Origin: Alphaproteobacteria bacterium
GTDB taxonomy: Bacteria; Pseudomonadota; Alphaproteobacteria; Bin95
NCBI GenBank assembly: GCA_026710105.1
Contig: JAPORR010000083.1
Span: forward strand, 1,289-53,516
Reading direction: 5' to 3'
Length of the DNA stretch: 52,228 nt
Position numbers and translations under genes: made by a program
Notes under the pieces: generated by a model
Databases searched by the model: none
Told to the model about the DNA's origin: nothing
What the model saw: only the letters and a program-made list of their open reading frames with translations
Part shown: piece by piece, positions 4,710 to 52,228 of the stretch
How positions within the stretch are numbered: position 1 is the first letter of the stretch
Layout: each line of letters begins with the position of its first letter

Positions 4710-6533
<1,824 letters not shown>

Positions 6534-49944: not shown

Positions 49945-50892
49945 ATGCGACCGCTGCGGTTGATTCCACCCGACACTAGTTTCCGCTTCATTGCGCTTCG
50001 TAAGCGTGCCTACATCGTCTCGATCCTGATGATTTTGGCTTCTGCAGCATCGCTTGCGACGCAAGGCTTGAATTTTGGTATCGATTTTGTCGGTGGCACG
50101 CTAATCGAGGTGCGCACTGATGGCCCAGCAGATATCCAGGCGATGCGCCAAATACTGTCCGCGCTCGACCGGGGCGAGGTCGGCTTGCAGGAATTCGGCC
50201 AGCCGACCGATGTGCTGATTCGTATTCAGCAGCAGCCGGGCGGCGACGCGGCCCAGCAGGCTACCGTCGCCGCTGTGAAGTCGGCTCTCGGTGACAGCGT
50301 CGAGGAATATCGCCGCGTCGAAGTTGTAGGACCCAAGGTAGGCGGCGAGCTGATCGAGGCTGGGGCGATCTCGGTCGGGCTCGCCCTGCTCGCGATCATG
50401 GCCTATATCTGGTTCCGGTTCGAATGGCAGTTCGGCGTGGGCGCGGTGCTCGCCTTGGCCCACGATGTTGTCACGACAGTGGGCGTATTCGCTCTCCTGC
50501 AATTGGAATTTAACCTCTCCACCGTTGCCGCGGTGCTGACCATCGCCGGCTATTCGATCAATGACACGGTGGTTGTCTTCGATCGGGTACGCGAAAACCT
50601 ACGCCGCTTCAAGACCCTGCCGATGACAGACCTGCTGAACCGGTCGGTCAACGAAACATTGTCGCGCACAGTCGTGACTTCCGCGACGACCCTTCTGGCT
50701 CTGTTCGCCCTGTTCTTCCTCGGGGGCGAGGTGATCCGCGACTTCGCTTTCGCGATGATCTGGGGCGTTATTATCGGCACCTACTCTTCGATTTGGATCG
50801 CCTCGACGACTCTCTTGTGGATGGGTGTGCGCCCAAGCGCGAGTGACGAATTGCTCGATGACGCCGAAATTGCCCGCACGCTCGGCGACTAA
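49945..50892 (+). CDS. secF: protein translocase subunit SecF
   Basis: 315 residues. GLNFGIDFVGGTLIEV (F1 motif), VGPKVGGELIEAGAIS, and IAGYSINDTVVVFDRVRENLR (F4 motif) identify SecF; six transmembrane helices. It partners SecD in the inner membrane. It lies 19 bases after secD with GAGGG upstream; its stop TAA shares a base with the next ATG. Confidence 0.96.
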   Translation: MRPLRLIPPDTSFRFIALRKRAYIVSILMILASAASLATQGLNFGIDFVGGTLIEVRTDGPADIQAMRQILSALDRGEVGLQEFGQPTDVLIRIQQQPGGDAAQQATVAAVKSALGDSVEEYRRVEVVGPKVGGELIEAGAISVGLALLAIMAYIWFRFEWQFGVGAVLALAHDVVTTVGVFALLQLEFNLSTVAAVLTIAGYSINDTVVVFDRVRENLRRFKTLPMTDLLNRSVNETLSRTVVTSATTLLALFALFFLGGEVIRDFAFAMIWGVIIGTYSSIWIASTTLLWMGVRPSASDELLDDAEIARTLGD

Positions 50893-51272
50893 TGACCGAC
50901 ATTAGTCCTGTCGTCCCGCAGAACCGCCAAGTCGTTGAAAGCTACGGCAGCAGGTGTTTCCGAATTTCAGGTACGATCTGGACGGGTTCTGTGCTGCTGC
51001 GCCCCGACGTGGTGTTGTCATGGCCGGTGACTGCGTTCCGGGAGGTTGTGCTGGAAAGTCTCATGCCGTTGACAGAGAGTGGCAACGCTCCCGAAATTCT
51101 CTTGATCGGCTGTGGCACCCGGGCAGAAATGATGTCCCGCACGCTGCGAGATGCGATTCGGGCAGAGGGCATGATCGCCGATACCATGGATACCGGTGCG
51201 GCCTGCCGTACTTATAATGTGTTGGTGGCAGAGGACCGCCGTGTTGCGGCCGCGCTGATCGCCGTCGAATAG
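50892..51272 (+). CDS. Mth938-like domain protein (NDUFAF3/DUF498 family)
   Basis: 126 residues. The family pattern FRISGTIWTGSVLLRPDVV, ILLIGCGTRAEMMSRTLR and the final NVLVAEDRRVAAALIAVE are typical. The human homologue NDUFAF3 helps assemble respiratory complex I; the bacterial role is less clear. It overlaps the secF stop by one base (TAATG) and is the usual tail of this operon in alphaproteobacteria. Confidence 0.88.
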   Translation: MTDISPVVPQNRQVVESYGSRCFRISGTIWTGSVLLRPDVVLSWPVTAFREVVLESLMPLTESGNAPEILLIGCGTRAEMMSRTLRDAIRAEGMIADTMDTGAACRTYNVLVAEDRRVAAALIAVE

Positions 51273-51431: not shown

Positions 51432-51576
51432 CACGGTATTGAACGGAGACCTTGACGCAAAAAAATCGCAGAGGTTTCGTTCAGGAACGCCGCGACGCAT
51501 ATTGGTGCCTGTTCAGGAAAAATCTTGCCGACACAACAAGAAAATCCACCGGGCCACATATCCGCTAGGCGATCGA

Positions 51577-52228
51577 GTGTTCGTTCCCTGTCGGCCTATC
51601 ACGTCGGAAGATGTAAAATCTACGGTCGATGATTACACTGCACTTTACGACGTCAGCCTGGACAGCAGAAAAGAGCATTACAGCTCTCTCGTAAACCAAT
51701 ATTACGACCTGGCGACCGATTTTTACGAATTCGGCTGGGTACAATCCTTCCATTTCGCGCCTCGTCGCCGGGGCGAGGCTTTCACGGCGTCTCTGCTTAG
51801 ACACCAGAATTTTCTTGCCGACTGGCTGTCCCCGAAACCGGGGATGCAAGTACTTGATGTGGAGTGCGGGGTTGGAGGACCGATGAGCAATCTGGCGCGC
51901 CGTTCGGGTGCTAGTTTTGTCGGCATCAACAACAACGCCCATCAGATTGAGCGCGCCAAAATTCATACGAAGGATGTCAAGGCATTATGCCGCTTCATCC
52001 TCGGCGACTATATGCAGATTCCGGAAGATGATAACAGCTATGACGCTGCCTTCGCGATCGAGTCCATGCCTCACGCGCCGGACAAAACAGCCGTCTTCGC
52101 CGAAATTCTGCGTGTCTTGCGCCCAGGAGCTTGCTTTGCGGAGTATGAATGGTGCCTTGCCGATGACTTTGACCCGGGCAATGCAAAGCACTTACAGATC
52201 AAGCACGATATCATGGTAGGCAACGGGT
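51577..52228 (+). CDS. sterol C-24 methyltransferase-like protein (Erg6/SMT type), 3' end outside window
   Basis: 217 residues to the window edge without a stop. LVNQYYDLATDFYEFGW and SFHFAPRRRGEAF reproduce SMT region I (the sterol-binding Y-E-x-G-W); VLDVECGVGGPMSNLARRSG the SAM site; FVGINNNAHQIERAK the NNN-Q block; AIESMPHAPDK the region III; AEYEWCLADDFDP the YEW region IV. This combination is specific to sterol methyltransferases rather than generic methyltransferases. SAM motif G is E (LDVECG) and IEATxHAP reads IESMPHAP. The start is probably GTG 51577 (weak TAGG site). Lower GC than its neighbours. Likely substrate a delta-24 sterol (inference). Confidence 0.85.
   Translation, partial: MFVPCRPITSEDVKSTVDDYTALYDVSLDSRKEHYSSLVNQYYDLATDFYEFGWVQSFHFAPRRRGEAFTASLLRHQNFLADWLSPKPGMQVLDVECGVGGPMSNLARRSGASFVGINNNAHQIERAKIHTKDVKALCRFILGDYMQIPEDDNSYDAAFAIESMPHAPDKTAVFAEILRVLRPGACFAEYEWCLADDFDPGNAKHLQIKHDIMVGNG

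Follow-up and report, generated by a model that had tools for sequence, protein, structure and literature searches.

The window, the whole 52,228-nucleotide stretch of alphaproteobacterial DNA analyzed here, comprises bases 1289 to 53516 of contig C45 (53,516 bp), and its right end is the contig end. The genome to which it belongs (G000; 3.35 Mb, 246 contigs) has listed completeness and contamination values of 100% and 0.91%. Toward this end, an intact yajC-secD-secF operon lies directly upstream of a fragment of a sterol C-24 methyltransferase (SMT) gene, as the first-pass annotation had reported, and the last open frame of the window (51439 to 52227 in the ORF list) is SMT homologous and runs off the window end. 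The features considered below are as follows.

49945 to 50892, forward strand: secF, a bacterial chromosomal context; 91 to 93% identity in genus mates
50892 to 51272, forward strand: DUF498 (PF04430) gene, the last intact gene upstream; kept after secF in genus mates, with no SMT beyond
51549 to 51606, forward strand: relic of the normal SMT N terminus in another frame (..ARRSSVRSLS.. versus ARRSSSRSLA in relatives); net +1 frameshift before 51607
51577 to 52227, forward strand: 5′ two-thirds of a probably decayed SMT gene (ORF); 78% identity to a Defluviicoccus-type MAG SMT; Methyltransf_11/25 domains
51739 to 51741, forward strand: region I, YEFGWG changed to YEFGWV (glycine to valine); all 76 relatives have G
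51862 to 51864, forward strand: SAM-binding motif I, LDVGCGVGG changed to LDVECGVGG (glycine to glutamate); all 76 relatives have G
52159 to 52161, forward strand: threonine to alanine in ...YEWCLTD...; all 76 relatives have T
52221 to 52228, forward strand: CAACGGGT, where C45 ends and the insertion point lies; SMT sequence resumes with these bases on contig C6, past a 55-base repeat terminus
Contig C6, outside the window: W to R in PWYRAL, in the C-terminal part; W in 76 of 76 relatives

An SMT gene divided between two contig ends

The SMT part in the window has 79 relatives in named genome contigs, the best of which is 78% identical over residues 10 to 218, and it shares 74% and 73% identity with two members of the same genus. 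It contains a class I SAM methyltransferase domain (Pfam Methyltransf_11, E value of 5e-17), and its Pfam and NCBIfam matches are to generic methyltransferases alone. The Sterol_MT_C domain (PF08498) has a single match in the whole genome, located outside the window at the end of contig C6 (E value of 7e-21; 5e-21 in the protein scan, with 76 bits against a cutoff of 21.7), and was also detected by protein scan in an intact relative (L041). A frame on C6 (18,195 bp) matches SMTs from about residue 225 through to the end, and the C-terminal part of the gene, which the first-pass annotation had lacked, was located there. Judged by its sequence, the gene is an Erg6-type SMT by descent on a bacterial chromosome.

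SMT homology on C6 begins at CAACGGGT, which also forms the last 8 bases of C45, while the 55 bases that separate this octamer from the end of C6 are a repeat terminus with no likeness to SMTs. Thus, the end of C45, and of the window, coincides with an insertion point within the SMT gene, and a copy of a multicopy mobile element probably sits inside it. The duplication of the target site would span 4 to 8 bp, its length being ambiguous because the element itself starts with GGGT and the final GGGT of the octamer may be the element's first four bases. The interrupted allele would show CAAC or CAACGGGT running into GGGTGCAAGTC, and an uninterrupted allele would continue from 52228 straight into TTGCCGGAC.

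The repeat terminus of C6 (GGGTGCAAGTCTGG..) was found at 12 other places in the genome by using a 20-base probe with up to 3 mismatches, and 11 of these are no more than 84 bases from a contig end; the exception (on C106) is the weakest match. Such clustering of copies at contig ends is the typical signature of a multicopy element breaking an assembly. The element, whose terminus reads GGGTGCAAGTCTGGCATGGCGCTG..., was seen on about a dozen contigs, in each case at an end (C6, C34, C5, C18, C24, C31, C92, C96, C110, C166, C190, and C154). Most repeat-bearing contig ends stop 52 to 55 bases into the repeat, a pattern that a graph assembler working with 55-base words would be expected to produce; within the repeat, C190 at its end and C154 at its start share exactly 55 bases. 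C154 is the sole contig that runs on into the repeat; frames judged by eye in its stretch beyond the terminus included HipA-like and integrase-like ones further in and no clear transposase. The terminus had no match in plasmids or viral contigs, and a 30-base version of it had none, at up to 3 mismatches, in 13 genus or family mates.

Genomic setting

The neighbors of the SMT part on C6 are Lon/ClpX/ClpP/trigger-factor-like genes, as read from translations. Because the flanking genes on both contigs (with yajC-secD-secF on C45) are bacterial, eukaryotic contamination, which the first-pass annotation had raised as a concern, was ruled out. In the available stretch of six genus mates, no SMT follows secF-DUF498, in agreement with the earlier view that this spot is otherwise occupied in related genomes. 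The 5′ half of the SMT gene has a GC content of 53% versus 62% for the window, and its GC at third positions is 0.61 versus 0.73 to 0.75 for secD, secF, and an enoyl-CoA hydratase gene. This low GC, from which lateral transfer had been suggested, fits either a lower-GC donor or decay and does not separate them.

Loss of the start, the frame, and invariant residues

Where the relatives have their ATG, the window copy has CCG, and the start is lost. A net +1 base in the window was needed in six of six pairwise DNA alignments to relatives, between the RSL-like and DEVKS-like stretches, and true SMT homology of the window frame extends from about 51607. The only nearby in-frame start is a GTG at 51577, inside the shifted stretch, the alternative being a distant TTG; this GTG could still allow a protein from the 5′ part. 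No single continuous SMT frame was thus found: the 5′ end has a +1 frameshift, and the homology is divided, at a repeat terminus, between the ends of two contigs.

Both halves were aligned with 76 relatives, including myxobacterial ones (77 sequences), and four positions identical in all 76 are altered in the window copy, three on C45 and one on C6. Neither region I (YExGWG) nor the SAM motif (LDVGCGxGGP) is intact; the SMT regions I to IV named in the first-pass annotation are thus not confirmed in intact form, as YEFGWV and LDVECGVGG both replace a glycine present in every relative. At columns invariant in the others, the window copy departs four times versus a median of 0 and a maximum of 2 for other symbiont-clade SMTs; the divergent paralogue L008 also shows four such departures. 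Moreover, the terminal branch of the window sequence in the tree measures 0.39 versus a median of 0.16.

The 320 SMT codons of the two halves contain no in-frame stop, and pairwise dN/dS values (about 0.08 to 0.13) are similar to those among relatives. The window-specific changes are not enriched for amino acid changes, and dN/dS gave decay no support. Given 320 open codons and low dN/dS, decay must therefore be recent or partial, or the pseudogene reading is wrong. Other broken SMT copies were observed at L091:7953-8980 (frameshift) and L095:7193-8185 (in-frame stop), representing either further decay or sequencing error.

Sterol pathway genes in the genome and its relatives

Searches of the genome, listed as 100% complete, returned no match to the cyclase (PF13243), squalene epoxidase (PF08491), or ERG4/ERG24 (PF01222) families, and no relic of the fused epoxidase-cyclase protein, whose sole match was a generic FAD one at 30%. 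Squalene epoxidase and oxidosqualene cyclase, which the first-pass annotation had suggested looking for in the genome, are hence both absent. The symbiont sterol cluster, in which a cyclase, a P450, and ERG24 adjoin the SMT, was not found at the window SMT and was found in L041, a locus of the genus mate G004. There, the intact SMT (L041:7953-8984) faces an opposite-strand fused squalene epoxidase-oxidosqualene cyclase (PF08491, PF13249, and PF13243), accompanied on that strand by a P450, an ERG4/ERG24 reductase, and a Rieske oxygenase; from context, the P450 would be of the CYP51 type, and the Rieske oxygenase could be SdmA-like.

Both G004 and another genus mate, G001, carry an SMT orthologue beside a fused epoxidase-cyclase and ERG24, and complete or partial sterol clusters occur in G001, G003, G004, G005, and G007. 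The states seen within this one genus thus range from an SMT with a complete cluster, through partial clusters and a relic, to the lack of any cluster. More broadly, a cyclase lies near the SMT in 56 of 79 named loci, with up to 8 kb examined on each side. A second, divergent SMT homologue (43 to 46% to the window) was noted in two genus mates, namely, L123 (G001:C74, about 5094-5663) and L008 (G005:C202), and that of G001 adjoins a further fragment of fused epoxidase-cyclase. Tandem SMT copies were also seen on a Binatota MAG contig (L080:5-931 and L080:2340-3218), at 77% and 79% to the L041 SMT.

Place in the SMT family

Phylogenetic analysis placed the window sequence and 66 symbiont SMTs in one clade (100% SH-aLRT), which spans nine named phyla, stands apart from other methyltransferases, and adjoins myxobacterial SMTs. 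A sterol enzyme in a bacterial genome, as first proposed, is thus borne out by the relatives, the Sterol_MT_C domain on C6, the tree, and the bacterial flanks, and the feared placement among non-sterol methyltransferases did not occur; "eukaryote-like" is a misleading label, since the close kin (up to 78% identity, from symbiont MAGs of nine phyla) are all bacterial. A sponge origin is named in some of the relatives' record titles (Spongia, lac_sponge, and Porisulfidus) and would be inferred for the other MAGs. The window sequence occupies a long branch in an unresolved part of the clade, its nearest sequences by path being from Nitrospirota and Rhodospirillales. A sister relation with the SMTs of genus mates was not rejected (AU test, P = 0.34); therefore, a separate transfer is not supported, while horizontal transfer of the window SMT is plausible.

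Interpretation

The explanation that we hold with good confidence is that the window and C6 together contain a recently inactivated, solitary pseudogene copy of a symbiont-type bacterial SMT, with a mobile repeat inside it and its pathway missing. An ancestor may have acquired or carried the SMT, most likely within a sterol cluster circulating among sponge symbionts. Working versions of the enzyme in relatives would use SAM to methylate, at C-24, a sterol supplied by the neighboring fused squalene epoxidase-cyclase, CYP51-type P450, and ERG24 reductase. In this genome, the other pathway genes would have been lost (the epoxidase, cyclase, and ERG24 being absent on search), the SMT has lost its start and its 5′ frame and is altered at several residues that look essential, and insertion of a mobile repeat would have split it in the middle. 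Loss of SMT activity appears likely from these sequence changes, and the order of the events is our suggestion.

The ends of C45 and C6 appear to be neighbors from their homology and shared octamer, and not from reads; synteny is neutral on this point, as genus mates differ both in what follows secF and in what lies upstream of the C6 amidase. That the join comes from homology rather than reads, and that G001 has two SMT homologues, would suit a reading with no split gene, in which C45 and C6 each carry part of a separate SMT gene that the assembly cut short. However, each half is single copy in the genome, both belong to the same subfamily with 70 to 80% identity to the same relatives, and they abut exactly with 8 bases in common, and we regard this reading as quite improbable. 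A small-molecule methyltransferase with no sterol substrate could be imagined from the generic models matched by the 5′ part, but it is scarcely credible given Sterol_MT_C on the 3′ part and in L041, the sterol enzymes adjoining the SMT in relatives, and the distance from other methyltransferases in the tree; on the C-terminal domain and the tree, a non-sterol enzyme was rejected.

It is unlikely, though somewhat less so, that most of the population has an intact, active SMT acting on host-derived sterols, with strain variation accounting for the contig break and the C6 repeat. The 320 open codons and low dN/dS would accord with such activity, as would the SMT of a Chlamydiae MAG that is active in vitro even though the MAG lacks other sterol genes, for which methylation of host-derived sterols has been proposed (PMC10070321). 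Against it, the G-to-E (SAM motif), G-to-V (region I), and W-to-R (C-terminal) changes are unique among 77 sequences, the 5′ start and frame are lost, and C6 continues into the multicopy repeat rather than into SMT sequence. A more elaborate scenario, in which an uninterrupted allele is expressed in part of the population and modifies host sterols without a de novo pathway, with altered catalytic residues shifting product specificity, seems very doubtful.

With the gene seen as a probable pseudogene, the prospect of a notable working bacterial SMT is not supported, the copy being interrupted and decayed and the tested sterol pathway genes absent; it is weak evidence for sterol alkylation by this bacterium. 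The relevance to biomarkers that had been claimed is a sound idea, but it was already published in 2022 and 2023 (PMC9531527 and PMC10070321), and the window copy is a poor example of it. The existence of bacterial SMTs makes 24-alkyl steranes harder to interpret, and what sequence searches count is homologues. An SMT match at a contig end can be a dead gene, and relics should be filtered before symbionts are credited with sterols. Symbiont lineages can lose sterol alkylation besides gaining it, and a genus with mixed cluster states is a usable system for the frequency of trait turnover.

Comparison with known systems

Functional bacterial SMTs and horizontally spread clusters are already known, and the window holds a probable pseudogene of a known family. 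Sterol gene clusters with ERG24, CYP51, and ERG7 occur in 10 phyla of Ircinia symbionts, where SMT1/ERG6 often lies on the opposite strand at the cluster 3′ end, and these clusters are horizontally transferred, purifying selection acting on their core genes (Kelly et al. 2022, PMC9531527). The present case shares with them the kind of protein (by homology), the kind of hosts (by some record titles), and, in the relatives, the opposite-strand SMT at the cluster 3′ end, whereas the window SMT is solitary after secF and DUF498, interrupted, and apparently decayed, and its genome lacks the cyclase, the epoxidase, and ERG24. SMTs from sponge symbionts and other bacteria methylate sterols in vitro, and three bacterial ones, two from a sponge metagenome and one from the Chlamydiae MAG, reach 24-isopropyl sterols (Brown et al. 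2023, PMC10070321). These share the methyltransferase and Sterol_MT_C domains with the window gene, but they are intact, whereas the window copy is split and altered at invariant sites. Region I, the SAM motif, region III, and the C-terminal domain of yeast Erg6 are all recognizable in the window/C6 gene. The yeast sequence is distant in the tree, and the nearest kin of the window SMT are bacterial.
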